From Quercus robur (taxonomy: Eukaryota; Streptophyta; Magnoliopsida; Fagales; Fagaceae): a stretch of DNA of 64,000 nucleotides. Under the pieces are notes generated by a model, which saw only the letters and a program-made list of their open reading frames with translations, searched no databases and was not told where the DNA came from. Position 1 is the first letter of the stretch. Each line of letters starts with the position of its first letter. Of this stretch, positions 1 through 55,303 are shown piece by piece. Location: the NCBI RefSeq assembly GCF_932294415.1, contig NC_065535.1:86582862-86646861 (forward strand). The letters run 5' to 3'. Made by a program: the position numbers and the translations under genes.

Positions 1-584
1 GACTCAATTGGGTAACTCACTGAATCCAAAGCTGGCAAGTAATAACCAGACATGACCAATAGCAACTCTGACTTGCTAGAGTTTTTTGCCTCAGAAACCA
101 CAGCAATTCGCCACTCGTTCAAAAGGGTATCTAAATTGGTCATGTCCGAGATTTTGCTTGGTAGAACCCCACAAAGGTCTATGCCATGAAACCCATAAAA
201 CCTTGCTGTTTCTATAGAGGACTGAATAAAAGAATTTCTAAAAGAGGACTGGTTGATCATTGAAAAGAAGATTGGAGAGTCTTCTCTGCCAACCCATACG
301 GACAAAAGCGTTGTAACCAATGGGTTCTTGAGCTTTACAGTGTTGGTGAAAGTAGAGAACTTTTGTTCGGTGGAGGAGTTGATAGAGAGGTGGTAGTTGG
401 AAGAGTTTATGTAAGCAAAAGCACATAGTAGGTGAGTAAAGAGCTTAGAGTTTATATCAGAAATGACAGTTTCACTACCTGAATAATAATAACCAGCTTT
501 AATCCAGGATTGTTGGGTTGAACAGTAGGATTTGAGTGGCAGAGAGTGGAGGAGGAAGAGTAGGGTGACAAGTTTGAACGCCAT
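1..584 (-). CDS. GH18 chitinase-like ectodomain, 5' part of a probable CHRK1-type receptor kinase (runs off left edge)
   Basis: An uninterrupted frame reads leftward from the ATG at 584-582 to the window edge: 194 codons plus 2 bases. Residues 1-20 are a hydrophobic signal peptide starting MAFKLVTLLFLL. Mature-domain landmarks are WIKAGYYYSG (27-36), the strand FTHLLCAFA (49-57), and GFHGIDLCGVLP (131-142), which sits where active plant class V chitinases have DGxDLDWE. The catalytic glutamate and second aspartate are absent, so I infer a non-hydrolysing, possibly glycan-binding domain. Tobacco CHRK1, a receptor kinase with a GH18 ectodomain, is known to lack this glutamate too. The pseudogene at 24-10 kb is a close paralogue with a kinase, which favours a receptor here, but the kinase end is outside the window, so a secreted chitinase-like protein is possible. 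No break is visible in the part seen. Confidence 0.8.
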   Translation of the reverse strand, partial: MAFKLVTLLFLLHSLPLKSYCSTQQSWIKAGYYYSGSETVISDINSKLFTHLLCAFAYINSSNYHLSINSSTEQKFSTFTNTVKLKNPLVTTLLSVWVGREDSPIFFSMINQSSFRNSFIQSSIETARFYGFHGIDLCGVLPSKISDMTNLDTLLNEWRIAVVSEAKNSSKSELLLVMSGYYLPALDSVSYPIE

Positions 585-1109: not shown

Positions 1110-1228
1110 TGGGTTGCTATGAAAAAAGGGATGGGCACTTTTAACAAGGAATGTAGATGGTTGGTGACAAAAAATAGCACTTTGAATATTTGGCATAATA
1201 ATTGGACTAATGGGGTTCCCTTAGAAAG

Positions 1229-1729
1229 TTGATTCAAGGACCAATTTCCCAAGAAGTTTATTGTTTGGAAATTAAAGATATTATGCTTGATGTGGGGTGG
1301 GATTGGGAGAAACTAACATTTGAACTTCCTGATGAAGTTAAGGGATTGATTTGTGCAATTCCCATTTCAACCTTAGGTGGTGGCCTAGACAAGTTGGCTT
1401 GGTCCGGGTCACCTAATGGGTCATTTGATGTCAAAAGCGCTTATGGGATTGCTATGAAGTCTTCTAATGCTACTGTTTTCTCGGTTAGCTGGATTTGGAA
1501 GATAGATTTGTTGCCAAAAGTTAGATTGTTTTTTTGGTTGTGTGCCCACAATAGTATTGGTGTTAAAGTTTGTCTAGGAAGAAGAGGAGTAGTTCAAGAT
1601 GAAGTGTGTCCTGTTTGCTGCAATGGGAGTGAAGCTATTTTGCATGCCTTGAGGGATTTCTCCCATTTGAAACATGTGTGGAATCAGCTAGGGGTTACGG
1701 CTTCTAACCATGAGTTTTTGGCATGTTAA
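1229..1729 (+). pseudogene. LINE ORF2 fragment, zf-RVT (zinc-binding) region
   Basis: A 166-codon open stretch. Residues around 68-80 (GSFDVKSAYGIAM) and 94-106 (LPKVRLFFWLCAH) are the usual plant LINE sequence following the reverse transcriptase, and CPVC near residue 127 with a downstream histidine (ILHALRDF) is the zf-RVT zinc motif. The leading part WHNNWTNGVPL lies upstream in another frame. It belongs to the same element as 5396-6153. Confidence 0.75.
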
Positions 1730-4700: not shown

Positions 4701-5395
4701 ATTATTTTTGTAATGAGAATATATGTGGTGACTTTGTAGAAAATGAAAGAAATTTAATCCAAAAGGTTTGGTAATGTTAACTTAATAAGAAAAGGAGAAC
4801 AATTATTTTCTATGAAGAGCGTATAAGCTATTATGAACAGTATAAAATACTATGCATGAAAAGATGTTCTCCTATTCAAATATTCATAGAATGAAATGAT
4901 CTGATTTACATGCATCCTTATTGAATTCTCATATATCTTACCTTTACTGAGCTGTGTAGCTCACCCCTTCCACTCTTTCAGTTAACAGGTTTTATTTTGG
5001 AGCAGAGGGAGCCTTAGTCGAGTTTGGAAGGAGCTGGTTTTAGTTTTATATGTATAGATCCTAAATTAGCAATTTGATGTTTAGCTTTTTAGTATTGTGT
5101 ATTTTAGGATCTAAGGAAAGTTGTATACCTTAAAGTATTAAGAGATGTTTTATGTGAAAGTGTGGAAATTAAATGATTGGTGGATTATGTTATATTTCGA
5201 GTATAGTGTAGATGCTCTGAATGTCAAGTGAAATGTTATACAATTTAAGTAAAGAAACAAGGATTTAAAGAAAGAAGAAAGTTTTTGTAAAAGTTTTGAA
5301 AAAGTTAAGTTGGTTCTTGTTAATATCAGGTTTAGGCTTGATATTAGCATGCCGGTCATGGTCACAAATCCGGGTACCGGGTTTGGGGCGTGACA
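1746..5395 (+). mobile_element. Solo LTR (3.65 kb) of a gypsy-like family, inserted in the LINE
   Basis: The element begins TGTAACACCCCGACCC and ends GGGGCGTGACA. It is flanked on both sides by GGCTG (1741-1745 and 5396-5400), a perfect 5-bp target duplication typical of LTR-element integration. It contains no gag, protease, reverse transcriptase or integrase and no internal copy of its own ends, so a solo LTR is the simplest reading; a large non-autonomous element is the alternative. A second copy of the family lies at 35512-38545 in the opposite orientation. Open stretches near 3203-3406 and 4107-4346 recur in that copy because the copies share ancestry; I do not regard them as genes. Treated as a fossil. 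Confidence 0.8.
4101..4182. repeat. 41-bp tandem duplication within the solo LTR
   Basis: Two adjacent 41-bp units beginning GGCCATTTAAAGTAGAGG differ at a single base. The same doubling is present in the reverse-oriented family member at 36541-36622, so it is an ancestral family feature rather than a local event. Confidence 0.75.
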
Positions 5396-6153
5396 GGCTG
5401 TCACTGAATGTAAGGAAGAATGACAAGTTGCATGGTTCAGGTACCCCATGGAAAATTGTGTTTCCCTTTGTTATTTGGATCATTTGGAAGAGTAGAAATG
5501 ATATCGTTTTCAATAGGAAAGGTCAGAGTCCTAAATTGGTATTGGATATTGTGTATCAAGCTAAGGAGTATCTTCATTGTGTGGCTACTCCAAGATTGCA
5601 AACACGTAGAGTCTTAAGAAGCATTCGATGGGAGAGACTTGAGCATGGGTGGAGGAAGCTGAACGTGGATGGGGCTTGCAATGAGCTTCATGGTCTGGTT
5701 GGTTGTGGGGGAGTGGTAAGGAATGAGGATGGGCAGTGGGTAGCTGGTTTTAGCAAGCGTATTGGGATCACTAGTAGTTTTGCCGTTGAGTTGTGGGGGC
5801 TGCGTGAGGGCCTCAAACTGTGTTGCAACCTAAATGTCCGCTATCTTGAAGTCGAGATGGATGCCAAGTCCATTGTTGAGGTGCTTCAGAATGCAGGTTA
5901 TGTTAACTATGTTATATCCCATATTTTAGATGACTGTAGGCAACTGATTAAACGGTTTCAAAATGTCCATATTAAGCATTGTTTCCAGCAAGCTAATCAA
6001 TGTGCTAATGGCTTAGCTAGGATGAGCTTTAGTTTGATTGCTGATTTCCTTATTTATGATAGTCCGCCTGTGGACATTTTAGATGTTTTTGAGGGAGACC
6101 TCAATGGGATGTACTTCAACAGGATATGTCCTGAACCTTGCTTTGGTGCTTAG
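5396..6153 (+). pseudogene. LINE ORF2 fragment, RNase H domain
   Basis: An open frame continuing the LINE after the LTR insertion. It starts SLNVRKNDKL and carries a plant LINE RNase H domain: LNVDGACNE with the first catalytic aspartate, CGGVVRNEDGQW, FAVELWGLREGL with the glutamate, VEMDAKSIVEVL with the second aspartate, and a C-terminal HCFQQANQCANGLA segment. The stop at 6151-6153 is followed by the poly(A) end. This domain looks intact, but the element as a whole is not. Confidence 0.8.
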
Positions 6154-9815: not shown

Positions 9816-9958
9816 CTTCTGTGAATGAGCACCAATGACTTTAATAAAGATGACTGTAAATAAGCATAAATGTCATTTTTAAGAGAAAAAAATTTTTATT
9901 TTTATTTTAACAATCATCAATGAACTTATATTTATATGTCCGACAAAGGCCTCCATAT

Positions 9959-10267
9959 TCAACGGGCAACCACTTGGGAGATTGTTGAATCATCAACCGA
10001 ACAAATTTCTAGCTGCAATCTGGAGTTGTATTCATCATCTTCATCTCTTTTCGTTGAAAATGCAGGCTTTTTAGGAATTGTCACAGCCACAGTTTCATTT
10101 TTTAGCATTGAGGAAACTTCCAACATTTACGGCCTATCAATTGCGTTTTCCTGAACACATAAAAGAGCTATGTGCGTGCATCGAATTAGTTTACACGATG
10201 AATTTGTATCACCTAGAGTTGGATCCATAAATTCCGTTCCTTTGCCTTCTCTCCATAGCTCATATGC
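9959..10267 (-). pseudogene. Exon 7: kinase C-terminal part with a stop
   Basis: It encodes AYELWREGKGTEFMDPTL, then CTHIALLCVQENAIDRP, then TAA at 10127-10129 where relatives have a serine (RPSML), and continues MLEVSSMLKNETVAV to a natural-looking stop at 9961-9959. In-frame sequence on both sides shows the stop is a point lesion. A-rich AATAAA-like sequence follows near 9900. Confidence 0.8.
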
Positions 10268-10384
10268 CTGAAATATAGAATATTAACCATCATTTCGAAA
10301 TGCAGAAATAATACTTAGCAAGAGAAAATAAATTCAAGACTTTGATCCACGTTTGTTCTAGCAATGTTTGTTAAAGTAACTTAC

Positions 10385-10535
10385 ATACTCTTGGAGGTTT
10401 AGATTCTCATCCAAGCCATAATAACAAGCAGTCTTCTTGCCACTTATGATTTGTAGAAGTAGAACTCCAAAGTTATAAACATCATATTTAGTAGAGTATA
10501 AACCTTTTTGCATGTATTCAGGTGGAATATAACCA
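10385..10535 (-). pseudogene. Exon 6: kinase C-lobe (151 bp)
   Basis: It encodes GYIPPEYMQKGLYSTKYDVY followed by NFGVLLLQIISGKK and CYYGLDENLNLQEY. The PPEY activation-segment end and DVYNFG helix-F motif are present. The exon is open, has the usual length, and is bounded by an AATGTAG acceptor and a GTAAGT donor. Confidence 0.85.
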
Positions 10536-10620
10536 CTACATTATTGGATTATGAACAACATGGTTAATTGCTTTACAAGAAATCTTGGGTTATAAAGTTT
10601 TATTTAAGTAGAGTACTTAC

Positions 10621-10858
10621 TAGGTTCCAACAATGCGGCTTGTGTTTGCTTCTTGTTCATCTTTCTTGAAAATTCTAGCCATGCCATAGTCTGAGATCTT
10701 GGGCTTCATCTCTTCATCCAGTAAAATGTTACTAGCTTTCAAATCTCGGTGAATTATTATCATTCTTGAATACCCTTGAAGATATAAAAGCTCTTGAGTT
10801 ACCCCTTCAATAATGTCAATGCATTTTCTCCAATCCAATAGGTATCGTCTGTCAGGGT
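10621..10858 (-). pseudogene. Exon 5: kinase catalytic loop (238 bp)
   Basis: It begins with CCTGACAGACGA ([13 protein letters not shown]) and contains [14 protein letters not shown], the catalytic loop with Asp and Asn, [10 protein letters not shown], and NTSRIVGTY at the 3' end before a GTAAGT donor. The magnesium-binding motif reads DYG instead of the usual DFG. The exon is open and of the usual 238 bp length. Confidence 0.85.
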
Positions 10859-10984
10859 CTATGACAAATTAGATAAAGAACAATTAGTTATACACTCATA
10901 TTGGGGCTAATAAAGCACTAAGATGTGAAACATTGCATTTAACATATATTAGTAACTATAATTGGTAGATGAAAGATATCAAAC

Positions 10985-11195
10985 CAAAGAGGTAGAAGTC
11001 CAAGCTTTTGTTCAACATGTACTTGTAGATTAGCATTTTTTCATCCATTTCAATGCAAAATCCCTAAAACTTGCACATGATTTACATGTAGTAGTTTTGC
11101 AGTGAGCATAACCTCATTCTTGAACTCCTTAATTCCTTGTGTGGACGTTTTTGAAAGTTTTTTCATAGCTATTTCTTTTCTATTTGGTAACACAC
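10985..11195 (-). pseudogene. Exon 4: kinase N-lobe (211 bp)
   Basis: It encodes [15 protein letters not shown], with the lysine of the VAIK position in [22 protein letters not shown] with the helix-C glutamate, and, in the frame restored by an extra base near 11063, [15 protein letters not shown] and NKSLDFYLF. The length equals the usual 211 bp, but the start appears one base short and an extra G occurs near 11063, so the intervening frame is shifted. The donor is GTTTGA. Confidence 0.75.
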
Positions 11196-11397
11196 CTTGA
11201 CAAAACAAAGACACCTATGAATGGTATCTTTCACCTAATAAGAAACTTCAAGACATTTAATGATGATAAAAGAGTAATGCTAGAAACAATGCCAGCTCAA
11301 TAAAGTTTAAAGCCTAAGGGGACAAATTTAAGCAAATTTTTTTGCATATATAATTATCAATTAAAAAATAATCATTTTATCCTTTTATATTATAATT

Positions 11398-11642
11398 TTG
11401 GGAAAGACAAAATTACCATTTTGGGGTCCACTTTTTACCATTTTGGTCCCTATATTTTGGGTCATTTTCAATTTGATCAATACTTTTTTCTAACAGTCAA
11501 TTTGGTCCCTACATTTTCTTAACAGTCATTTTGAAATTGATCCCAAAATATGGGAACCAAATTGACTATTAGGAAAAAGTATTGACCAAATTGAAAATAC
11601 CCAAAAATGTAGAAATCAAAAGGATAATTTTGCCTAAAATAT
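11398..11642. mobile_element. Foldback MITE in intron 3
   Basis: Two arms pair around a centre near 11520. The left arm has ACAAAATTACCATTTTGG, TTTGGTCCCTA and TTGATCAATACTTTTT; the right arm reads these back in reverse complement (AAAAGTATTGACCAAATTG and GGATAATTTTGCC). No ORF. The target duplication is unclear. Confidence 0.6.
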
Positions 11643-12796
11643 ACCATAAGAATGGTTTTATTTTAAAAATTTTTCATATAGGAAACCGGTGGTCCCAACC
11701 TTTGGCGACTCTATTCTACTCCCTACCCATGGGACACATTGGAAATCCCGTAGACCAATAGTATGGTGGATGAAACTTGGAACCTCTGGATATAAGACAT
11801 GTCCTTTAAGTCCATTGAGCTGAAGGGTGGCTTTACATTGAGCTCAAAATGTTCATATGAACAACCTGACTTGAAAAATGATTTATATACATGTTTATTT
11901 TAAAACTAATGTGTTTTCTTTACCTTAAAAAAATATTGAACACCGTGACTTAAGAATCCCAAGAATTTGGGTTCAACAAAAATAATATTGTCCCCCCAAA
12001 CATAATGTTTATCCCCTTAAACAATAAAAATAAATAAAGCCCAAATAACAATAATAAAAATTAGCTCAAATAATAGCTAAAATAGCCCAAACAACAACAA
12101 ATGAACAAAACATTGAACAATAATGCTCATTCAAAAACAAAAAATAAAAACCCTAATCATTCAGATTCATAACTCATTCAATCCATTCCATAAAAATAAT
12201 TTATAATAATTTTTTTCCTAAGAAAGGTATTAACAGAGATACTATGGTCGTGAGTTCTCTTCAGCAACACTGGCAACTCTGTTCTTATTAGCTTTGTTGT
12301 CGTAGTAGCTATGCTTTTCTTGGCAGCTCAACTCATAATGGTAGTAGGTATGATTCATTGCTCTATGCATCTCTCTCTCTCTCTCTCCGTTTTTCTCTTC
12401 TCTATCATTATTTCAGAATCTCTCTCACTTTATTACCGTCATTTCAACATTCTCAGTGCTCACCTTATCTCTCATTAGTCATTTTTTGCCTTTTCATATT
12501 CTTAGTAGAATGAAATTGTAAAACTTAATGTATTTGTAATTTTTTTTTTGTGATGTCAATATATTTAAGTTCTTTTTTTATTTCATTTTGTATAATTTAA
12601 GTTGTCTTAACAGCTATTCTAGAAAAAAAAATAATTCTAGAGCAGCTACTAATTGAGCCCAGCATCCAAGTGTCTCTATATAGACCAATGATTTTATAGA
12701 TAGATTCATGTTTTTGCCAATTTGTTTAGTGTGAAAAATGAAGCCCCAGTAGTGATGTTGGGCAATGCCACAATGTAGAGTCTAACAAAAGTTTAC

Positions 12797-14468
12797 CTTG
12801 TATACGGGTAGACGTGGCAAAATGGGTGGGTTGGATCGGGTTTGAGTTGGGCCAATCGGGTTTGCAGGTCAAACGGGTTGCGGGTCAAAACGGGTCATTT
12901 TTAAACAAGTTAATCGGGTTGCGGGTCGGGTCGGGTTTACCCGTATTTTTCAAACAATTTTTTTTTTCAATTACAAAAACAAATCAATGACAACCTGTTT
13001 AGAGAGAAAGAATAAAATTAATTAAGCAAATGAATTGCACTTAATGCCACTTGTTAATATCCTTCCAATTCTGATAGTTTTGAGCATGACAAAAATTATT
13101 TATAGTCATAAATTCATAATGGAAAAAATCTTCAATGTTAATAGTTCACTGTCAAAATGCATATGATTACAAGTTTATATCTTCAAAAAGAGATAGATCA
13201 TAAAACAAACAAAACAAGTAAGCCAGCAAAGTAGAAAGTTATCGGTCTTCTTAAGTGCACATGTTTTTGTTGCATTTAAAATAATAGTAAAGTTAGATTA
13301 CTTAGAAAGATAAACTAAACAAAAAAAAGATTTAAAAATAAACATAACATATTAAGTAAAGAAGAATAAGTAAATATTTTATAAAAATTACACCTCAATC
13401 TCAATCTACTCAACGTTGGTAGCAGATTCAGCATTGCAAATATTTATACTTGCAAATTGTAGCTCAAGTTGGCCAATTTTGTTAGCATCTTCATCTATAA
13501 TAAAATATTTTAATATAACTTAATGTACCATGAAAGCAAATCAATAAAGAATTAAAATTGTATAATTATGACTATAAAAAACGTAGCTTCAAATCCATAT
13601 AACCAACTTTTAGTACATAATGTAGCTTCCACATTCTCAGGTAAAAGATATGATCGATACGGAGTAAGAATTTTTTTTCCCAACTGGGAAAGGAAGCTTT
13701 GTGGTTCACTGGTTTGGTTTGACTCAACTTTTTCAAGTTTGCCATTTGTGGCTTTGTGCATTGTAACATTGTTCATTTGTTTGTGCTTTAGGCTTTGGAG
13801 TTTGGACAATGGACTACAGTTCAGCTTAGTTGAATGAGAATTTTTTTTTTTAATGGTTGTCTACTTGTCTTGACTCTTGAGTCACTTGATAGCCTTGGCC
13901 TTTATGTTGTGTAATGTGTTAAGGACCTTTTGTCTTGTCTGATGGCAATTGATTTGGCAGGCAAGCACTGAAGCTAGGCTAGCAGCTAGCTTCTCAAAAA
14001 AAAAAAAAAAAGCTAGGCTAGCTAGCTTTTATTGGTAGTCATTCTCACTAATATATAATATATATTGATTATTAGTTTTGGTACTTTGTGCTTTATGCAC
14101 TTAGTATCAGGACGTAATTTAAATAATTTTTTAGCGAATTTTTTTAACAGGTCAGGTCACGAGTTATCCGGGTCGGGTCGGGTCGGGTCAGGTCGGGTCA
14201 CGGGTCAACCCGTTTTTGCTTCGGGTAAAAAAAATCGAGTTCGGGTCAGGTTTTTTCAGGTCTAGTCAGGTCGGGTCAGAAAATTTTAACCTATATTGCC
14301 ATGTCTATATACAAGGCCATAACCTCCCTCTCCAAGTTTTTTTTTACATTGAAAATTTATCTATAGCTGCCTCAATGTCGACTAAACTAAAGACTTGCAA
14401 ATCAAGAACACTACTCTCCGAATCCCCTGTAGTTGCTATACAATTAACTTCAGACTCTAATTCTTTAG
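12797..14468 (-). pseudogene. Exon 3: juxtamembrane region and ATP-binding loop, interrupted by a hAT element
   Basis: The acceptor GGTTACAG precedes KELESEVN. The exon continues LDLQVFSLVDIEAAIDKF and then the glycine-rich loop LGEGGYGLVYK. The hAT element (12809-14307) lies in the codons for VYK; the remaining CAAG and a GTAAAC donor are found on its far side at 12800-12795. Without the transposon and one target duplication the exon is about 165 bp, one base more than the phase requires. That extra base fits an A run just before the loop, where a TAA also appears. This is the exon that would bind ATP. Confidence 0.8.
12809..14307. mobile_element. Non-autonomous hAT-like transposon in kinase exon 3
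   Basis: The termini are TAGACGTGGCAAAAT at the left and, read inward from the right, TAGACATGGCAATAT. The flanks TATACGGG (12801-12808) and TATACAAG (14308-14315) are an 8-bp duplication with two mismatches, the size typical of hAT. Subterminal regions at both ends are dense in CGGGT motifs (12820-12945 and 14150-14275), another habit of hAT elements. At 1499 bp it shows no transposase. It interrupts the VYK codons of the receptor kinase, which fixes both its borders and its insertion frame. Confidence 0.8.
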
Positions 14469-14584
14469 CTGTAACCACCATTCCAAAATTGAAAAAAAAT
14501 TAGAATAAGAACAGAGAAAAGGCCCCGAAATTTCAATTCCTCAATCATGGTAATTAGCTAATTATAAGAAAATCCTTTTAACTA

Positions 14585-14610
14585 AGGGGGGAGCTACACA
14601 CATGGCCCCC

Positions 14611-14647
<37 letters not shown>

Positions 14648-15292
14648 CCTTTATATATAATTGTTTTAACATTTTTGAAAATTTAGCATACAAAAATAGG
14701 AGTCCCCCCCCCCCCTCAAAAAAAATTTGACTTAGTCCAATCATTTTCTTAAAAAAATAATTGGTCGAATAGTTATAGAAACAATCTTTTATTTTTCTCA
14801 AATTTTTATTGTAAAATGTGCTCTTATATCTGTTAATTTTTTTTTTTTTTTTTTTTTAAATTTGGCATCAAACATGTTTGGATCTATCTTTTTCAACCCA
14901 TTATGTGGTGATTAAACAAGTCATTAACTTATTAAAAAAATCTTGTGACAAAAACCATGCAAAAAATGTCTCTTTAGTTGCCACATAATAGGTTAGAGCA
15001 AGATAGTTTTAAATATGTTTGGAGCCAAATTTGTTCCTCCATGTTTTAGATCATTCATGTTTTTGAAAATTTCATTAGTTCAATTGAAATATTTTTTACT
15101 CACTTTGGTATACAATTTGATCATTTGTATTGAAAATCAAAATTTTTAAAGAATTTGACTATGGAAATGGTAAAAGATGAATTTTATTTTATTCTATGAA
15201 AGATTGTCATCAAATATAATTTTGATAGATAATATTAAGCTTTTTGTGTGTCTGTGGGTATGTAACTTATCAAGTAAAAAAGTGTGTGTATA

Positions 15293-15348
<56 letters not shown>

Positions 15349-15418
15349 GATTGTCTTGACTAATATATTAACGTCGCAACTCAGCATCTCTAAATAAAAA
15401 TTCTTGGCTCCACCCCTG
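14585..15418. mobile_element. MULE-like element in intron 2 of the receptor pseudogene
   Basis: It is flanked by a perfect 9-bp duplication TTTTAACTA (14576-14584 and 15419-15427), the usual size for Mutator-like elements. The ends are short related inverted sequences, AGGGGGGAGC at the left and CAGGGGTGGAGCC read inward from the right. The interior is AT-rich, with T runs, a GT microsatellite and a poly(G) run, and no ORF of note. Without it intron 2 would be only about 155 bp. Confidence 0.7.
15297..15349. repeat. (GT)n followed by poly(G)
   Basis: About 18 GT units followed by about 18 G residues, inside the MULE-like element. A likely length-variable locus, and an open frame across it (15177-15359) is only the repeat being read. 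Confidence 0.9.
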
Positions 15419-15467
15419 TTTTAACTATAGATGGTAAATGGTAACACACTTTCTAGAGAAAAGTTAC

Positions 15468-15605
15468 CTTTGAATGTGAGTATTCTCATTCGTAAGTACT
15501 GTATTGCAAGGCCTAGTAATAGAGAAGTGGTAATAGTTGTAGTCAAAGCGATCACCAATAGTCGCCACTTGGACTTGGGTCGTCCATTATTTTTTTCCTC
15601 TTGAG
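15468..15605 (-). pseudogene. Exon 2: transmembrane anchor
   Basis: A 138-bp exon after a GTTGTCAG acceptor and before a GTAACT donor. It encodes AQEEKNNGRPKSKWR, a basic stretch, then the hydrophobic segment LLVIALTTTITTSLLLGLAI and a positively charged stop-transfer end. It finishes in phase 1 with TTC AAA G, which pairs with the CT start of exon 3. This exon itself is open. Confidence 0.75.
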
Positions 15606-15669
15606 CTGACAACGCAAACTCATTAATTTAATGAGAGATTAATATGCTAAGATCTAAAAAGCTATCTCA

Positions 15670-15845
15670 TTTATATATGAGAATTGCTACATTTACAATA
15701 TTTTTACAATAAATTCTAAGTGATAAGTTGTTACTGACTATTACTAGTTGACATAAAAGTAATATCAATGGTGGGCACAAATTAGAATTAGTTGTAACTT
15801 GCTACTTCGAATTTATTGCAAAATTGTTATAAAAATGTTGTTGAC
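15670..15845. mobile_element. Foldback MITE
   Basis: Inverted arms TTACAATATTTTTACAATAA and, in reverse, CAACATTTTTATAACAATTT, followed inward by AGTGATAAGTTGTTAC-type sequence on both sides. Similar foldbacks occur at 24840-25005 and 42130-42300. Located in intron 1. Confidence 0.6.
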
Positions 15846-16071
15846 ATAAGCTCCATTTGAGAACAACTTATTTAGCTGAATCTGAAAATTTTTTGTTGAA
15901 AATGCGCTAAAGTATGCTTGTACCTTAAAAAAATTGAAAATGTAAAAAAAAAAAGACATGAAAAAAATGAGGCTTTAAAAAAATGTACATTAAAACTAAA
16001 AACTAAGCTTACAAGCTTATGCCATTGGTAGTATTACTCTTTTGAGCCTTAAATGAACAAATAGACTCTAA

Positions 16072-17291
16072 GAGCATTCTCGTCAGCTTTCTCAAATGTG
16101 CCAAATGCTAAATATTTGGCACATTTGGCACACCAAACACAAAAACGGACCCTCATCAGGTGTGCTAAATGTCTCAAAATTTTGAGACATGCTACAGTAC
16201 GCTCTCAAATATGAGAGCGTACGGACAGAAATGCTATTTTAGTTTTATAATTTTTTATTCTCTTTTCTCTCTCCTCTCTCATCACTTTCTTCTTTTCTCT
16301 TCTTTCTCATTTTGCCTCGGAGTCTCAAACACCAAACCTCTCCAACCCACTTCAATCACTCTTTTTTCTTCTCACTCTTGTTGGTTTTCTCTCTTCCTCT
16401 CAGCCTCGCCGCGCCGCCTCCTCGACTTGATGCTGATCTTTGTTGCTATGGTTTGTTTGTTTGTTTGTTTGTTTTTTTTTTTTTTTTTTTTTGCAGTGAT
16501 TTGATACCCGGTTCGGCAGTGGGTGGGTTGAGATAGTGATGGGCGGATCAGTGGTGGTGGGTTGCGATGAGTAGATTCAATGGTGGGTGGGTCGGCTGGT
16601 GATGGGCGAATCAGTGGTGGTGGGTTATGATGTGCGAATTCAGTGGTAGGAGGGCCGGCCTATGGATGGGTTCCAAAGGATGGGTCGGTAGTGGATGGGT
16701 GGGTTGGCGGTGGGTGGGTTGGCAATGGCAGTGGGTGGGTCGGAAGTGGGTGGGTTGGCGGCGGCAGTGGGTGGGTGTGTGGGATGCGGTGGGTTGTGTT
16801 TTTTGTTTTTGTTTTTTTGTTTTGGTGGTTGTGATTCGAGTGATTGTGGGTTGATTTTCATAGGTTGTGATGGGCTGATGTTGGTGGGTGGTGGTGGTTG
16901 TGGGTTGATTTTGGTGGTTTTGTTTTTTTGTTTTTTCTGGTGGTTGTGGCCGCAACAATTTTTCTAGTAGTGTTTTATTTTTATTTTTTATAAGGTGGTG
17001 TTGGTGGACGTGGGTTTGTGCTGGTGGTGGCTGTTGGTGTTGTTGCGGCAGTGGTTGTTGGTGGCAGTGCTAGTTATGTCGTTGTTTGTTGTTGTTGATG
17101 ATGATGATGAGGAGGAGGAGGAGGAGGGTGATATATTATTTTAATGTGTTGGAAATATTATTTTAATGTATAGAATTGGAGAATAGAATATCTGATAAAT
17201 GTTATGTTGTAAAATGATGTGCTAAAATAATATAGTAGGTTTTTGGTATATCAAAATGGCATTTTTTATAGAACAGCTGATGAGAATGCTC
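16072..17291. mobile_element. PIF/Harbinger-like element 1, TAA target duplication, GGTGGGT-rich core
   Basis: The left end GAGCATTCTCGTCAGCT and the right end read inward, GAGCATTCTCATCAGCT, differ by one base, and both sides carry TAA (16069-16071 and 17292-17294), the 3-bp duplication of PIF/Harbinger elements. The core at 16500-17130 is dominated by GGTGGGT/GGTGG repeats, and the open frames across it are low-complexity. No transposase is visible. It lies in intron 1. Confidence 0.65.
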
Positions 17292-17473
17292 TAATATCAA
17301 ATTCCAAGTGCAAGATGGATTCTGATAGGCTAGGTTGGAAAAAGTCAATGTTGGTCAAAGTCAAAGTCAATGGTATAGTCAACAATTTGATCTTGGTTCA
17401 ACGATTTTGTCCAATGGTTTAGTAATGAGCAGATTCAGGATTCAGATCTAATCGAGTCATGTATTTGGGTTAA

Positions 17474-18588
17474 GAGCATTCATATTGATGGAGCTACTTT
17501 TTTAGTTATTTGACACCACAAAAAGTCACTTTATTTATTTTACATTTTCACATTACAAAACATTCAATATTAGTGGTTTTATTTTAGCTTTTAACACAAT
17601 AAAATAATATAAACACTACAATAAAATAATATTTTATTCAACTACCAAAACACAATCACAACCACCATCAAAGCCATAGAAATCATTGCACAGCCATAAC
17701 CCCACCACTGTAACCAGTACCCATAAAAAACCAATGAAGAAGAACAAAAAAAGAAAGCAGAAAAACTAGAAAAAAACAAGCAGATCGACAACAACCTAGA
17801 TCAGAAACACAAATCGAGAAGCCGAAACCCACAGATCAACAACAACCAGCAAAAACCCAGCCCGAAACACAAACCGAGGGGTTGAAAACCCACGTCCAAA
17901 ACATAAGAGAGAGGCCAAAACTCATGCCCGAAACACAAACTCAGCCCGAAACGCAGACCTGAAACACAAACACAGCTAGAAACTCAGCCCGAAATCCATG
18001 CCGAAACACAAGCACAAACGCAGAAAACAGAGAAGAAAGGCCGAGATGGGTCAACGTGGGTAAGCTTGGGACTTGGGGCTTCGGGCTTGGGTCGGCGGCG
18101 AGGGTGAGATGGGTTAGCGTAGGTCGGCGGCATGGGGCAGGGGAATTGGGCCGGTGAGGAGTGGAGGAAGAAAGAAAAATAAAATGCGATGGAGTATGGG
18201 TCAATGGCAATGGCTGATTGAAGCATGAGTCATCGGCGATGGGTCTGTGGCGACTGGGCTAGTGTAGATCGGCGTGGAGGAAGAGAGAAGCAGATGGAGA
18301 GGGAGTGAGGAGAGAGACACGGAGAAACAAATGAAACGCAGGAAGAAGAGGAAGAAGAAAAATGAGAATAAAAGAAAGAATACAACTTAGTAAAATAATC
18401 AAAAGCACACAAATAATTTTTTTTTTTTTAATACTTTTTAGCTATAGTGCATAATCACTTTTGGTTGTGCACTGTAGTTGTGGAGTAAAAAAATATGGTT
18501 TTGGCTCCACCATTGTAAGACACATGTTGGTATTTGGTGGTGTTAAAAATAACAATATAGCTATTTAGCACTACTAATACGGATGCTC
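17474..18588. mobile_element. PIF/Harbinger-like element 2, TAA target duplication
   Basis: The left end GAGCATTCATATTGATG and the right end read inward, GAGCATCCGTATTAGTAG, are similar, and TAA is present on both sides (17471-17473 and 18589-18591). The core carries repeated AGCCCGAAAC/AAACACAAAC units and a GC-richer segment near 18030-18130. No transposase. It is only about 180 bp from element 1, with related termini. Confidence 0.6.
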
Positions 18589-18732
18589 TAAGTCGACTCA
18601 AGAGAGGAAAGAAGTAATTGATGTGACTGATCATGAGAGTGACACATGGCAAAATGCTTTTTGTGGTGACATCACATATCTAAAACAACGCATGCAATGT
18701 GTGTTGTGTGTACGTGAGAGAAGTAGTTTTAG

Positions 18733-18890
18733 GATTACAAATTATTCTATAATTTTTTTGTTACAATTTTAACATGGTAGATTGTAAATTAACTATCACT
18801 TAAATAAGAATTCATAATTTTTTTTTTTACCAATCACACTCTACCAAATCACAATTATAATAAGAAATTGTGAAAAATGATATGATCCTA
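18733..18890. mobile_element. Small foldback MITE
   Basis: The arm TATAATTTTTTTGTTACAAT with TGGTAGATTGTAAATT pairs with the downstream stretch CAATTATAATAAGAAATTG and CTACCAAATCACAATT in reverse. No coding capacity. Confidence 0.4.
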
Positions 18891-19469
18891 GACTTTTCCG
18901 TGTGATAGCACGAACAGAGAGTTTGACAGCGCTTGAGGCTCATAGTAGGAAAGACAGTGCGTGATAAGGGATCTATTGTATTTATTAGTGTAAGCGCGTG
19001 GGAAGACGTGGTGGTGCATCAAAGTGCGTGTGGCATGTGCATTGGCACTCCGAGACTCTTGGCCGCTAGTGGAAGGTTGGTTGAGATTAATTTTTCTAGT
19101 TTTTATAAATTGGTTCAAGGCATTCTTTATAGTGATGGCGGTGAGGGGCTCGTGGACTTTGGACGTTGGTTTTTGAGAGAGCTAGCTTTAGATCTGGGAT
19201 GGTAGATGGTGATGTTAGCTTCGTCGACGAAGATGAGAGCGACTGTGGCTTGTTGATCTAGCGACAATGTTGGAGTGAATGGAGTCGCCAATATGTTTGG
19301 AGAGACAGTGATGATGTTGTAGCTTGCCTGGGTTCCCAAATTTGGTTGTGCTATGGAGGAATGTGATGGAGTTGTTTGTGTAGTTGAAGAATTTGGAAAA
19401 TCTTTTGGGAGATTGATAGGAAACTGAGATGGGCTTTTGTTGGGGGAGATTAACACTTTGATAAACTTT
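18891..19469. other. Intron 1 DNA with unrecognised open frames
   Basis: It is somewhat GC-richer than its surroundings, with overlapping frames on both strands (about 18933-19205 plus and 19127-19456 minus). Neither shows a domain I recognise. It could be remnant transposon sequence; I do not call a gene. Confidence 0.4.
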
Positions 19470-20155
19470 CAATTGAGTAATTAAAATAATATATAGGAAC
19501 ACCACTTAACCTAAAAGACTTAAGCCTTTAAGTTTGGGCACAACTATATTATATCAACCATTGTCACTTAAAATTCTTATTCCATGTAGGACTTTATTCA
19601 TATATGTATTTTCAATATTCTCTCCCTTACGCGTGAGTATTTTCCTCTTTGTGGGTTTTGATCAAGTCTTACTTGCTCCTTCAATGCCTATGGACTTTTT
19701 CTATCACCAGCACATCATCCATCGACCTCTCTTATGCCATCCATGGGAACCACATGTCAACCCCATATGCTCATCTATGGGAGTCGGCCTGTACATTCCT
19801 GTCTATTGGAACTACATGCTTCACCGTAATCTAGCACCATTAACAATACTCCTTTGTGTTGGGTTGTTCTCCTTGATTATTTGTGTGGGCCCTTTAGGCT
19901 TGCTATGTCCCCATAAGGAAAGGGACCTTGAACACCTTGCCATCTTCGCTGCACATTACTTGAACTCTAATACTACTTGAAAGGTAGAAAACACCTTGGA
20001 GATCCTCCAATTGAGTAGTTAATATAATATATAGGGACACCACCTAATCCAAAAGACGTAAGCCTTTGAGTTTGAGCCCAACTATGTTATATTAGCCACT
20101 CTTTCTTGACATTTATATTGAATGTGAGATTTTATTTACACATGTATTTCCAACA
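19470..20155. repeat. Pair of about 150-bp direct repeats around 390 bp (TRIM-like?)
   Basis: The segments from about 19470 and 20009 match in order: CAATTGAGTA, AATAATATATAGG, ACACCAC, TAAGCCTTT and CAACTAT. Both end in a related GTATTT(T/C)CAA. Short direct repeats around a small non-coding interior suggest a terminal-repeat retrotransposon in miniature, but no primer-binding site or target duplication was confirmed. The 148-codon frame inside shows no known domain. Confidence 0.45.
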
Positions 20156-20660
20156 GCTATGTTTGTGGAACATAATAACAAAACTTGTGAAAGATAGAAG
20201 CAATTGGCCACATGAAAGTTAATTAAAGTGAAATAGGAAAATATTATAGTGAGAATTGTAGTGAAAGCGGAAGCAAAAGTGAAAGATCTCGAATACACAA
20301 AATTATATAGTTCGGCCTGAATGCCTATTTCTTCTGAGGAAGCTCCTAACAGCTACATTGTTACCATATGATCAATTCGATAGATACTAGGGGAAATATA
20401 GAGATTAAAAACTTGGCTTAGGTGTACATAAGCTTACAGCATACTTGGGCCATCACATAATTTACAAATAAACCCATATATCTTTAACTGGAAGAACTAG
20501 CAATTGAAGTCTTAATCTGTTTCCAAGTCAGGCCAATGATCCATGAATGACCATTTCACGTCTTTTCTCACATAGAATTACAACCCGCCATCTATTTGAG
20601 CCCACCACAATACAAAGAAGAGAGTGAAATTTTCAAGAAATTTTCCATTCTCATAGACTT

Positions 20661-20997
20661 GGTGCCCGTTTGGATTGGGCTTATTTCCTGCGTGTCTGCA
20701 TTTTCAGCCTTTTTTTTTTTTTTTTTTTTGACATGCTACTTTCATGTTGTGTCTGTTAGTGGGTTCCATGCACTGTGCACGGACCCACCACCTCTTTGAC
20801 CAGCAAGCATTTTATGTGGGAATTGGCTTGTCAATGGGTCCGGTGTACTATTCATGGGACCTACAAATCTCACTTTTTAACAACTTTTTCATTAAAAATA
20901 GGTCACACGATACTATTCACACATTTAAAAAAAAAAATTGCTACAATGTTTTCAATTTTCAATTTTCAACAAAATAAGCTGTATCCAAACGAACCCT
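20661..20997. mobile_element. MITE-like element with CGTTTGGAT termini
   Basis: The left end GCCCGTTTGGATTGGGCTTA and the right end read inward, GGGTTCGTTTGGATACAG, are related and both lead into CTTATTT. The interior contains CACTGTGCACGG and TACTATTCATGGG. Non-coding; the superfamily is not settled. Confidence 0.5.
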
Positions 20998-22946
20998 TAC
21001 TATTAAACAAAAGATCAATAGTTAAGCTCATGTGGACCTTTTCTAAAAGTTCTCATGATAAACTTCACTTGACTGGAATTCAATTATTTGCAACTAAGAA
21101 AAAAGAGAAGAAACGATAAAGATTATATGAATGATTGAACAGGGTAGGCCATCGACATCTTGACAAGCCTTAGCCAAAATTGGACATTAGCCTTGTTTAG
21201 GGACGGAGCTAGGTGGAGGCCCAAAGGGCCCCGGCTCCACTGACCTTATAAGGCCTCGATTGATTAGAGTGAAAATAGTGAGAATAAAAAATGAAAAAAA
21301 AAAAAAAAAAAATTGGAGAGAAGATGGATAAATAGCGTGTTTGGTAATTGGGAGGGAGATAGATGAAGAAAATGGTGATGCTTAGCTATTTTTTCTCTCT
21401 GGACCCACCAATCTCAATCTCCCCAAAATGGGGAAAAAATAAGAACAAAAATGATGAGCAAAATTTTGGACTAAAATACTGACCGGCCAACACTCACTTC
21501 TTTGAACGTTTCTTGCTTTGCTTTTTTTTTTTTTTTGGTCCATTTGTTTCTTTTATTTTTAACCATCAGTTTTGGTTTCATTTTTTAATGATCTATTCCT
21601 TTCTCTCTTTTTTCCCCATCAATTTTGGCTTTTTTGTTTTTATAGGCGTTATTTGTTTTTTAATTTATTTATCAGTTTTTGTGTTAAATAAAAAAAAACA
21701 ATATTGGGTTATTGAATTTCTTGTGCTTTAATTTTTTTTTAATTTTTTATTTATAAATGAAATGCCCATTCTTATATAATCTTTTAATAAAAATATAATG
21801 TATGATTTTTATTATTATTTTATCTAATAGGGACATATGGTAAATTTATACAAACTATATTTTTCTATTCTCTTATTTTCCAATTCAACCAAACTAAAGA
21901 GTTTTCCATCACTCCACTTTTCCACCCCTCCAATTAATCAAACGATGTGAGGGAAAATTAAAATCTTTTCTATTCCTCCACTTTTCCATCACTTTGCTCA
22001 TTTTCTATCATCCCACTTTTTCATCCCTTAACCAAATGGACCCTAAGAAAAAAATAAATCAAGTAGTTGTATTCTCTACAATTTCATATTTGGGGCCCCT
22101 GTTCCAAAAATCTTGGTCCCCGTCCCCTATAGTTTTACATTGATTTCATTGGAAGAACATTTGTATCAATTTTTATAAAATAGTATAAAACCCCAAATGT
22201 TGGCCCATTGACTACAAAATACGCTCACATCAGTCTATATATTATTGTACAAAAATATATTTATTCTATAGTTGCTGTGTAAATTTATACAGTTATTGTA
22301 GCTATGCAAATGAAGTTTTTAGAATTATTAAGATGGAGGGTAGTGGTTTTTTTTGTAGAGGAAGAGAGATATATGATTTGGGATAGTAATAAAAAAAAAT
22401 AATAATGAAATAGTATCTTAATAAAATGTAGTATAAAATCAATAATCTTATGTGAGATGTTTTAAAAAATAAGTATATAAAATAGAAAAAGTAAATAAAT
22501 TTTTATGCTAAAATAGACAATAAATTTTGTATGAGTTTATGTAGATGCTCTAATGTACGTGGTAAGGAAAAAAAAAAAAATGATGTTTTGTATTTTTGTC
22601 ATTGTTAATAGTTTGTTTTTTTTTTTTTTTTTTAAGAATCAAATTGAATCAACTTTTATTAAAAGAAAAATTAACTGTAATTTGTTAATACTAAATAAAA
22701 GCTTATTTAACATTTTTTTTTTTAGCTTATACTTTGACTCCCCTGACTTCAAATCCCTGACTCCATCATCATTGGTTATCAATGCACTGAAAACAACATG
22801 CTTACCTAGTCAATAATCTTTCTTCCTTAATTCAAGTCTTACTGATATTATTTGATTATTTAAAAATGAGGGCTATTATATTACCTTTCTGAAAAAAAGA
22901 GAAATTAAAATAATATAGAATATAGCAAGAGTGCAGCATCTCCTAC
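20998..22946. other. Remainder of intron 1 of the receptor pseudogene
   Basis: AT-rich, with T and A runs. Fragments at about 21200-21250 (GGACGGAGCTAGGTGGAGG) and 22090-22125 (CCCCGTCCCCTATAG) look like worn transposon ends. No exon was found between the GH18 exon and the membrane exon. Confidence 0.45.
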
Positions 22947-24015
22947 CTGCTGAAGAAAGTACCCAATTGTCATCATATGGGATTTGCCACACAAAGTAAC
23001 CAAGTAGCTTCTTCTCCCTGGCATAAGAAACCTTAATTCTGACAACTTCAACATCATCAAAGCCAATCCAATTAGATTTACTACATATGTAGCATTATAC
23101 ATTATAGCAGCCCCGGGTCTGAGAACATAACCCTTGATATCATTATGGCACATGGCTCCCCCATCGGTTGAAATGGCAGCTGGACCTGTAGCTAGTGCAC
23201 CTATTGCGTTGTCGTTTGGGTTCTTTAGCCTCCATGCATAACCATAGAAAGGCAATCCTAAAACCAACTTGCTAGCTGACAAGCCGCTCCCAATCCATGC
23301 ACCAATACCATAATCCGTGTTATGAGCCTGTCTCGATGGGTCATATAAGGCGGCATGAGCACCCGTATAATTTGACAACTTGGGCGTATAGTAGTCATAT
23401 GCCAGAACATGCACCCAAATTCCAATCCAAGTCATTCCGAATAAAGTCCACAGGGAAAGAAACATTAACATCTATGTCTGGTGAGTATTGAACAGCAGCA
23501 GTCAAAATCAATTGTTTCTGGTTTGAATTTTTGGCCTCAGAATTTACAGCGGTTCGCTACTCTTGAAAGAGTAATCCCATGTTCTTCATGTTGAGGAATG
23601 TGTGTGCCGAAACCCAACAAAGGTCTAAACCTTGGAAGCCATAAAGCCTGGCCATCTTTATTGAAGAGTCAATGAAAGATGTTCTGTAAGTTTCCTTGCT
23701 GACCATGTACGCAAGGGTGGTATGGTTTACAATGGAAAGAAGGGTGGTGACTGATGGGTTCTTTTGTCTAACAGTTTTTGTGAAGGTGGAGAAGTATTGC
23801 TCATCAGTGGACGATACAGAGAGCTCGTAGGACGAAGAGTTTACATCCGCAAAAGCGCAAATAAGGTGAGTAAAGAGAGCTGAGTTTATATCTGAAATGG
23901 GAAACTTGGTGTCGGAGAACCAGTAACCTGCTTTGACCCAAGTTTGTGCATTTGAAGTCTTCAATTTTGAATAGAGAAGGATATGGAAAAGAAGAATGAT
24001 AATTTTGGACATCAT
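22947..24015 (-). pseudogene. Exon 1: signal peptide and GH18 chitinase-like domain (broken)
   Basis: It starts MMSKIIILLF; residues 1-23 form a signal peptide, followed by WVKAGYWFSDT (26-36), FTHLICAFADVNS (48-60) and GFQGLDLCWVSA (126-137). The last lacks the DLDWE acid residues, as in the left-edge gene. After the stop at 23557-23559 (a tryptophan codon in the paralogue) the domain continues with AVQYSPDID, then in another frame LAYDYYTPK and LVLGLPFYGYAWRL, and after a further shift NWIGFDDVEVVRIK and LLGYFVWQIPYDDNW, the usual C-terminal GH18 strand. The exon ends at 22947 before a GTAGGA donor. Usual family length is preserved (1069 bp), so decay is by small lesions only. Confidence 0.85.
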
Positions 24016-24139
24016 GTATATGTGGGTACTTGATCCTCAGGAGCAAATTAAAGGTGCATATAAAAATGACAGCATCTCATATTAATTTGTAGCCACACAC
24101 GTTTGTGCAAGGAGCCAACGAGAGGATTTTGTGAGTACC

Positions 24140-50194: not shown

Positions 50195-53100
50195 TCAGAA
50201 CTTTCCATGAGCAAGGTCCTTAATGGCTAAGGATACCCTTTTTAGGATTAGGTCCCCAATATTGAACTGTCTTGGCTTTACCAACGCATCATGGTACTTA
50301 GTCATCAGGTTCTTATAACACACCACCCTCTGCTCTACGTCCATTCTAACCTCATCAATGAGATCAAGGTTTAGACGGAGATGTTTTGCATTTTCCTCCT
50401 CCTTATAATGGGCTACCCTATGGCTAGTTAATCCAACCTTCGCTGGTATCACTGCATCACTTCTATACGCTAGTTTAAAGGGAATCTCACCAGTAGGAGT
50501 CCTTACAGTCGTCCTATATGTCCAAAGGACACTAGGCAATTCATCTGGCCATATCCCTTTTGCCCCCTCAAGCCGAGTTTTGATGATCTTTAGCAAGGAT
50601 CGGTTTGCAACTTCAACTTTTCCGTTGGCCTGTGTGGGTGGGCGGGCGAGGAGTAATGATTTTTGATTCCTAACTGCTCACAGAATTCCCTGAGAGGTGT
50701 GTTGTCAAATTGTCATCCATTATCTGAGACGAGTACCCTAGGGATCCCAAAACAGCAAATGATATTCTTTCAGACGAAGCTTTTGATGTTTTACTGAGTG
50801 ATTTTTGTCAAGGGCTCTACTTCTACCCATTTGGTGAAATAATCAATCCCTACCACTAAGAACTTCATTTGTCTCGTCCCCCTGGGAAAAGGACTAAGGA
50901 TATCGAGTCTCCACTTGGCAAAAGGCCATGGAGCCACCATTGGGGTAAGATACTCTGATGGTCGTCTAGGGATGTTGTTGTAGCGTTGGCATTTATCACA
51001 CACTTTGACATAAGCTTTGGCATCTACTTGCATGGTCAGCCAGTAATATTCTACACGGACTATCTTATGGACTAGTGATCTAGCCCTCGAATGATTTCCA
51101 CAAGCTCTTTCCTAGACGTCCTTCAGGCCCTAATGGGACTCGTCTGGAATCAAACACCTCAGGTAAGGTTGAGAAAAACGTCTTTTATATAACACCTCGA
51201 CCATGAGGACAAACTTCGCAGCTCTTATTCTTAACTTCCTTGCTTCTTCTATGTCTTTAGGGAGTAGTTTGTCTTTGAGATAAGACACAATTAGGGTGGT
51301 CCAGTTGACAACTCCATCCACTTGATTTATTTTCATAACATCTATGCTCGGAACATATTAGACTTTAACTTGATCACCTACCATCTCGTCCAAAGACGCC
51401 ATTTTGGCTAAGACGTCAGCTTCTGTATTCTCTTCCCTTGGTATTTGTTGAAATTGGGTTGTTGTAAAGCCTTTGATGCATTGCTTAACTTTCTCCATGT
51501 ATTTCTTCATTCGCTCTTCTTTGGCTTCACACATCCCATTTACTTGTCCTATCACTAGCTGTGAATCTCCCTAGACGAGGATTGATTCCGCCCTAAGTGA
51601 TTTCGCCAATTCCAAATCCTGAAGGAAGGCTTTATACTCAGTTTCATTATTCGTTGTTTGGAATTGTAGACGGACGGCGTACTCTAAATGATCTCCTTCT
51701 GGTGATTGGAAGATGATCCCAATTCCTCCTTCATGTTGTGTGGATGACCTATCAACATGGACGACCCACTACTTTGCCCCCTGGTCTCCATCTTGCTGAT
51801 CGTTAGTAGGAGTAAATTCAGCAATGAAGTCTGCAAGGACTTGTACTTTTACTGCTTCTCTTGGCTGGTATTGCACATCGAACTCACTAAGTTCCACTAC
51901 CTACTGGATCAATCGTCTAGCGGCCTCTAACTTATTCATACCTTTCTTTAATGGGTGATCTATCAGGACGTTGATTACATGAGCTTGGAAATAAGGTATG
52001 AGCTTTCTTGTTGCTGTTACCAGTGAAAACGCTAGCTTTTCCATTGGTGGATACCATCCTTCAGCTCCTCTTAAGGCTTTGTTAGTATAGTAGACGAGCT
52101 TCTATATCTTTCCTTCTTCTCTAATCAAGGATAAGCTTACTGCATGGGGAGACACTGCTAGGTAGAGATACAACTCCTCTCCTGGTTTGGATGGGCTTAG
52201 CAACGGGGTTGAAGTGAGATAAGTCTTCAAGTCTTCAAAGGCTCATTGACACTCGTCCGTCCATTCGAATGCCTTCCTTAATATTCTGAAAAATGGTAAA
52301 CACTTGTCAGTGGCTTTTGAAACAAACCTATTAAGGGCTGCCACTTGTCCAGTGAGGCTCTGGGCGTCTTTAATATTCTTCGAAGGTTCCATGTTCAAGA
52401 TTGCTTGGATCTTATCAGGATTTGCCTCAATCCCTCTCTATGAGACCATAAAATTGAGGAATTTCCCTGATGTAACTCCAAACGCACACTTGCTTGGGTT
52501 CAGTTTCATTTTATACCATCTAAGTGTATCGAAGGTCTCTTGAAGTTCATCCAAATGCTGCTATCCTTCGTACTCTTCACCAGTATATCATCCATATATA
52601 ATCAACATTTCGTCCAATCTGTGGACGAAACATGTGGTTAACCAACCTCTAGTAGGTAGCTCTTGCATTTTTCAACTTGAACGACATAACTTTATAACAA
52701 AAAAAACCTTGGCTTTTGATGAAGGATGTTTTCTCCTGGTCCGCCTAGTTCATCTTGATTTGGTTATACCCCGAGAATGCATCCATAAAACTCAACAGTT
52801 GAGGTCCAGCTATTAAATCTACCAACTAATCAATGCGTGGAAGAGAATAACTTTCTTTGGGGCATGTCTTGTTTAAATTTGTGAAATCTACACACATCCT
52901 CCACTTGCTATTAGCATTCTTGACCATCACTACATTAGCTAGCCAATCAGGGTAGTATACTTCGCGAATAAATTCTACAGTGATTAACTTTTGGACTTCT
53001 TCTTTGATGGCATTATCACGTTCTGGGGCAAACACTCTCTTCTTCTGACGAATAGGCTTGTAAGATGGAGATACATTTAGATGATGAGTAATCACACTTG

Positions 53101-55007: not shown

Positions 55008-55303
55008 ACAAGTGACAGTACCTTTGGACTGGTCCCCTTCAGCATTGTTCTCATCACCTTCGTATCTTGAATTTTGGCCTCGTTCTCCACTATGCTGTTG
55101 ATGTTGCCTGTTAACTTCTCTAGTTAACTCTCGGTTCTATTGCGTCAGTTTTGCCATTAATGCTGCCATAGATTGCAATTGTTGCTGGACGGTCATGGGG
55201 GGTGGTGGTGTGCAATTTGGGAGACTAGAGGCATTTCCACTCTCCTGGTGCCCTGGACTAGTAGCCATTGACCTAGATCGAACCATGTAGCCTTTTTGTC
55301 TTG

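Follow-up and report, generated by a model that had tools for sequence, protein, structure and literature searches.

A dead GH18-domain receptor-like kinase gene of Quercus robur and the tandem array to which it very probably belongs

Structure of the window copy

The stretch of DNA analysed here (the window) is 64,000 nucleotides long and corresponds to positions 86582862-86646861 of contig NC_065535.1 (hereafter C2) of Quercus robur. Its minus strand carries, from window position 24015 to 9959, a gene copy (W) that consists, in this order, of a GH18 exon, a membrane-anchor exon and five kinase-side exons with compatible splice phases. A preliminary description made from the sequence alone had proposed for this place a fossil chitinase-domain receptor kinase with these parts on one strand and in matching phases, and all seven exons were found at 24015-9959. 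The comparisons presented below indicate that W very probably belongs, as a dead copy, to a tandem array of receptor-like kinases with GH18 ectodomains, all on the same strand and of the type of tobacco CHRK1. The features of W are as follows (window positions).

22947..24015, minus: exon 1, hydrophobic N-terminus (signal peptide, judged by eye) and GH18 domain
15606..22946, minus: intron 1, 7,341 bp
15468..15605, minus: exon 2, transmembrane (TM) exon, 138 bp; AG acceptor and GT donor retained
14469..15467, minus: intron 2, 999 bp
14308..14468, minus: exon 3, first part, juxtamembrane region and glycine loop
12809..14307, minus: insert within exon 3, 1,499 bp
12797..12808, minus: exon 3, last bases past the insert, followed by the donor GTAAAC; 12808-12801 is the flanking repeat
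10985..11196, minus: exon 4, kinase, 212 bp; start set from the alignment, AG one base further in
10621..10858, minus: exon 5, kinase, 238 bp; HRDLK retained, DFG present as DYG
10385..10535, minus: exon 6, kinase, 151 bp
9959..10267, minus: exon 7, last kinase exon, 309 bp; terminates with the expected stop

Five pieces of W, drawn from the exons other than the TM, juxtamembrane and 211-bp-type ones, were run against Pfam. The two GH18 pieces hit Glyco_hydro_18 (E 2.7e-17 and 4.8e-15) and the pieces at 10868-10620 and 10540-10358 hit kinase models, while the 51-residue piece at 10282-10127 gave no Pfam match. The protein pieces of D, one of four neighbouring paralogues (A, B, C and D), match the region of W in order on the minus strand, and 50 dinucleotide shuffles of 9900-24100 gave no match to these pieces at E<1e-3.

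The first model of W had introns 1 to 3 of 7,341, 999 and 3,107 bp, against 967, 145 and 354 bp in D; intron 2 measures 145-161 bp in A-D, and exon 2 is 132 bp in A, B and D versus 138 bp in W. The 3,107-bp intron includes nearly the whole 1,499-bp insert, and since this insert sits inside exon 3, an apparent intron of about 3.1 kb is not intron throughout; the preliminary description had taken the insert for intron. The loss of the exon 3 donor, suggested by the first model, was rejected because the donor lies at 12797/12796, beyond the insert. A processed pseudogene was also rejected, since the six introns are in place in W.

Lesions of the window copy and the exon 3 insert

The fossil state of the gene has been borne out by seven disabling lesions, namely two in-frame stops, four frameshifts and one exon split by an insert. 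Exon 1 contains a TAG stop at 23559-23557, a 7-bp insertion at about 23430-23415 and a 16-bp deletion with its junction at about 23078, the last two shifting the frame, and it has also lost the SxGG region through a 12-bp in-frame deletion. In exon 3, one extra base ahead of an A run produces a frameshift and a stop, and the insert divides the exon; in exon 4, one extra base at about 11067-11065 shifts the frame, and exon 7 has an internal TAA stop at 10129-10127.

The exon 3 insert has 12-bp terminal inverted repeats that match at 11 of 12 positions and 8-bp flanking repeats that match at 6 of 8, and its longest stop-to-stop frame is 102 codons. It thus shows both features that we take to mark hAT elements, an 8-bp target repeat and short terminal inverted repeats, and on these grounds it appears to be a hAT-like non-autonomous element. 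GACCCG-rich stretches were observed close to both ends of the insert (12809-14307).

Intact paralogues and the tandem array

Searches of the oak genome itself covered 786 Mb in 42 contigs. When part of the GH18 exon was searched for at the DNA level, eight places including W were hit, all in minus orientation within C2 86.509-86.787 Mb. We have retrieved the 200 kb on the higher-coordinate side of the window and queried them exon by exon; the resulting joined stretch of 260 kb contains four more exon sets (A, B, C and D) whose order and strand agree with those of W, as well as GH18 pieces without a kinase. A, B and D have a single terminal stop, 766, 766 and 761 codons, respectively, and GT-AG borders at all six introns, with exons of 1,087 or 1,081, 132, 164, 211, 238, 151 and 318 or 309 bp. 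C is broken: it has lost 4 bp in the TM exon, has gained bases in exons 3 and 5 and has indels in its GH18 part. The splice sites are common to the five aligned copies, except for the shifted exon 4 acceptor and the displaced exon 3 donor of W.

Since A, B and D carry all the parts in one open frame, the GH18 domain, membrane anchor and kinase belong to one gene, with which the Pfam matches of D agree. The preliminary description had named two outcomes that would speak against it, a split of the GH18 and kinase parts between two genes of different orientation and an exon order known from no protein. Instead, both parts lie on the same strand and in one frame in A, B and D, which provide this exon order, and the architecture has been published for CHRK1 and its relatives. 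Two points go beyond that description: W is one of an array, and even the intact copies have lost the chitinase active site.

Fused copies, in which GH18 and kinase parts are combined, amount to eight (W, A, B, C, D, E7, F8 and G). The diverged sets E7 and F8, which were read as sequences outside full gene models, have the same exon order as W; the TM donor context of E7 is irregular. For G, the GH18, TM and juxtamembrane part was read and the kinase exons are known from genome matches only. E7 enters the window as follows.

1..584, minus: start of the GH18 exon of E7 (first Met at about 584), crossing the left window edge; its TM, juxtamembrane and kinase exons lie beyond, to C2 86578673

The kinase parts were located by two further genome searches. 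When the last kinase exon of D was used, with the best 150 of 764 candidates scored, the eight best matches were all on the minus strand of C2 at 86.503-86.784 Mb (E<=1.3e-30, 55-100% identity), and the ninth, with E 7.2e-24, fell outside the array. With the 238-bp exon (best 150 of 2035 candidates scored), nine matches of 81-100% identity were found in the array, one of them a broken fragment, versus at most 76% elsewhere. F8 shows 81% identity in this exon and its kinase lies behind a GH18 exon; what distinguishes it from matches elsewhere is its score and this GH18 exon, not its last-exon identity.

The ninth 238-bp-type kinase exon, at C2 86556089-86556316, contains a stop and is absent from the last-exon matches listed; it appears to be another decayed member.

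The middle kinase exons of 211, 238 and 151 bp announced in the preliminary description are exact in A, B and D, and the same sizes were derived by hand from splice contexts in E7 and F8. In W itself, the 238- and 151-bp exons agree and the first has one extra base (212/238/151); the broken C has 211/240/151. A, B and D retain the HRD and DFG motifs; among solved kinases, the best matches are to the plant receptor kinases SYMRK, BAK1 and BRI1. The C-terminus of D reached E 0.0056 and 17.2 bits with DUF3403, below the cut-off of 28.9.

A 7.3-kb first intron full of transposons had also been described. Its length stands (7,341 bp versus 967 bp in D), and its first 2.4 kb contain six short blocks of D intron 1 in the same order (E 3e-19 to 1e-5) with extra DNA between them; since these blocks survive in order, the intron of W has been inflated by insertions. 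The transposon content found partial support: the single ORF (open reading frame) scanned in this intron gave no Pfam match, and its long direct repeats, besides T-rich and 61-bp tandem ones, come down to one 164-bp pair with 77% identity. Large introns alone are not lethal, because A and B are still open despite first introns of 11.7 and 13.6 kb.

The first introns of A (C2 86659397-86671070) and B (86708837-86722392) have in common an insert flanked by direct repeats of about 842 bp, 88% alike within A and 84% within B. As it is common to both, this insert is probably older than their duplication. A transposon common to the first introns of W and the intact copies was considered and rejected, since the W intron matches the A/B insert only at its ends.

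These data bear on the alternative that W is two unrelated neighbours, a broken chitinase gene and a broken receptor kinase lying on the same strand by chance. The 7.3 kb of mostly unmatched DNA between the two parts could be taken in that sense, but these parts share a single frame in A, B and D, the first intron of W opens with blocks of the D intron that link its two halves, and all eight array kinases sit behind a GH18 exon without the catalytic Glu. We therefore give this explanation almost no credit.

Loss of the catalytic residues and variability of the cleft

The catalytic motif reads GLDLCWV in W and GIDLCGV in E7. At the DxE position, W, D and E7 have CxV, A has GxD, B has GxN, C has NxV, G has FxV and F8 has FxL. 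The catalytic Glu is thus lost in eight of eight fused copies, which have Val, Asp, Asn or Leu in its place and Cys, Gly, Phe or Asn in place of the catalytic Asp. In contrast, the Glu is kept in each of the twelve unfused GH18 genes or fragments whose motif was read: L031-L037 (seven, with L032/L033 and L036/L037 as near-copies), L045 and four pieces of the 260-kb stretch, one of which has a His at the catalytic Asp and keeps the Glu. No kinase was found within about 3.5 kb of L031, L032, L036, L037 and L045, none beside the four pieces when the exons of W were searched over the 260-kb stretch, and none for L033-L035 among the matches listed of the last-exon (best 150 of 764) and 238-bp-exon (best 150 of 2035) searches. 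A GH18 fragment of the fused type (L006), outside the eight, lacks the Glu, and no kinase exon was found near it in the 260-kb stretch.

Over the whole genome, 57 exon-level matches came from the GH18 family search. The best ten all lie at C2 86.37-86.92 Mb, where unfused GH18 genes flank the fused copies on both sides. Three GH18 matches at C2 86860222-86871523 (minus) score the same as three on the other strand at 86885152-86896449 (plus), a pattern that points to a recent inverted duplication among the unfused GH18 genes.

In a GH18 tree of 16 rows rooted by midpoint, the seven fused rows fall on one side of a branch with support of 100/99; C was a row neither in this tree nor in the column analyses. 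This grouping indicates that the loss of the Glu may be one event followed by drift or selection, and not eight events. Of 333 alignable GH18 columns, 71 show no variation among nine unfused or reference chitinases, which include two near-copy pairs; 43 of these stay invariant in the seven fused copies and 28 vary. At least four residues occur in the fused copies at just three of the 71 columns: those of the catalytic Glu, of the MxYD Met, where the seven copies show six residues, and of a Trp nine positions on. Without the dead W, these columns hold four, five and three residues, respectively, in six copies. We take DxE and MxYD to be the counterparts of residues in the beta-4 and beta-6 loops of the plant GH18 lectin PPL2. 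In that lectin, the catalytic Asp, Glu and Tyr are located in these two loops (PMC12355970).

It might be argued that the fused GH18 domains remain enzymes through another acid residue, as A has an Asp at the Glu position and none of the seven aligned fused copies has lost the Tyr of the MAYD motif. This is very improbable, given that the catalytic Glu and Asp are both replaced across the eight fused copies, that the Glu persists in the twelve unfused ones, and that CHRK1 is reported to lack both the Glu and chitinase activity (PMC10573068).

With the enzyme site lost, the best fit for the family, judged from sequence, is a pseudo-enzyme receptor of CHRK1 type acting as a carbohydrate sensor. 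The intact members would reach the plasma membrane by means of an N-terminal signal and a single membrane helix, where the dead GH18 barrel could serve as a lectin-like sensor for chitin fragments, lipo-chitooligosaccharides or N-glycans and would signal through an ordinary Ser/Thr receptor-like kinase. W itself yields no such protein. A bolder proposal, to which we attach some but rather little probability, is that the array is a diversifying receptor family, in which one fusion of a class V-like chitinase and an S-domain-type kinase discarded its enzyme site and turned the cleft into a variable ligand-reading surface. If this were true, and selection rather than mere decay were at work, the members would be receptors of glycans or lipo-chitooligosaccharides with member-specific ligands.

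Timing of the death of the window copy

Branch dN/dS values were obtained by NG86, excluding stop and gapped codons, in three-taxon comparisons of 750 codons. With A as the outgroup, W gave 0.35 (bootstrap 0.25-0.45) and D 0.30 (0.17-0.52); with B as the outgroup, 0.37 (0.28-0.53) and 0.26 (0.17-0.43). The branch of the intact A gave 0.46 (0.29-0.70) and that of the broken C 0.47 (0.31-0.70); the value of W thus does not exceed that of A and is near that of D. The dS of the W branch was 0.187 versus 0.096 for D, i.e., a branch about twice as long, and support is weak (81/80) for whether W groups with D or with A and B. Since a copy dead along its entire branch would approach a dN/dS of 1, most of the W branch was under constraint, and W looks to have died late, after long purifying selection.

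The fact that the dN/dS of the W branch is not raised, together with the first 152 codons of W being open, would also suit a W that still produces a truncated GH18 protein, i.e., a soluble decoy, or a regulatory RNA. We consider this very unlikely, since the frame ends before half of the barrel and the SxGG strand is hit by the 12-bp loss.

Some points weigh against the interpretation of W as a late-dead member of a receptor kinase array. Both the signal peptide and the membrane helix were recognised by eye, and the joined 260-kb stretch contains 5,000 N. The identity gap in the last kinase exon is narrow, F8 having 55% and partial matches elsewhere up to 54% (best 150 of 764). Finally, the late death is a rough estimate, and gene conversion could mimic constraint in the dN/dS of W.

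Other features of the window

On the plus strand, window positions 1211-1729 and 5269-6153 match Pfam zf-RVT (E 4.2e-13) and RVT_3 (E 7e-25), and are probably pieces of a non-LTR (non-long terminal repeat) element. An integrase zinc-binding match (E 4.2e-7) lies at 50791-51111 on the minus strand. Four neighbouring frames at 50195-55136 gave no Pfam match and look retrotransposon-like by eye.

Comparison with known genes

Exon sizes of 211, 238 and 151 bp in the kinase are a mark of S-domain receptor kinases. The array shares these sizes with them, but has a GH18 domain instead of an S-locus or bulb-lectin ectodomain. No paper on S-domain kinase exon sizes, and none on Quercus with GH18 and a receptor kinase, was found in the literature searched. 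A title search for a GH18-kinase tandem array or an array of inactive GH18 receptors also found none, which is a weak negative because most subscription journals lie outside the search. Oak has been reported to have many tandemly duplicated receptor-like kinases (PMC6086335).

The closest solved sequences to the GH18 exon of D are 3aqu (At4g19810, E 6.7e-106), 3alg, 3alf (E 7e-104) and 4uri, a chitinase-related agglutinin (E 5.8e-85). We take 3aqu and 3alf to be the proteins commonly named AtChiC and NtChiV, respectively, and 4uri to be RobpsCRA from Robinia. These class V chitinases, 3aqu and 3alf, have the active-site Asp and Glu and no kinase, unlike the fused copies, and the agglutinin has no kinase either, unlike the array members. 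RobpsCRA is reported to be near class V chitinases, to have essentially no enzyme activity and to bind high-mannose N-glycans (PMC6272470).

The kind of gene is already known. Tobacco CHRK1 combines a class V chitinase-like ectodomain, reported to lack the catalytic Glu and chitinase activity, with a kinase (PMC10573068). In soybean, GmGH18-20 has a class V GH18 and a Ser/Thr kinase domain, and GmGH18-18 and GmGH18-32 have kinase motifs too, with a PAN domain; in that paper, GmGH18-20 is the only one named as class V with a kinase (PMC11855358), whereas eight are found here in one array. A review of 2017 reports 91 plant GH18-kinase sequences such as CHRK1, which it does not count as lectin receptors since their ectodomain is predicted to be an enzyme (PMC5485988). 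With the catalytic acid gone from every one of the eight fused copies of this genome, there is a case for placing such genes among the lectin receptors instead.

The tandem array with an eroded and variable cleft is more interesting than the gene kind itself, and it offers a ready set for ligand tests. W in turn exemplifies a gene that would probably be split by automatic annotation and whose unity is proved by its intact sisters. By its description, CHRK1 resembles the array in having a GH18 ectodomain, a membrane span (judged by eye) and a kinase in one gene, with the Glu absent; the difference is that W is dead and stands in an array of eight.

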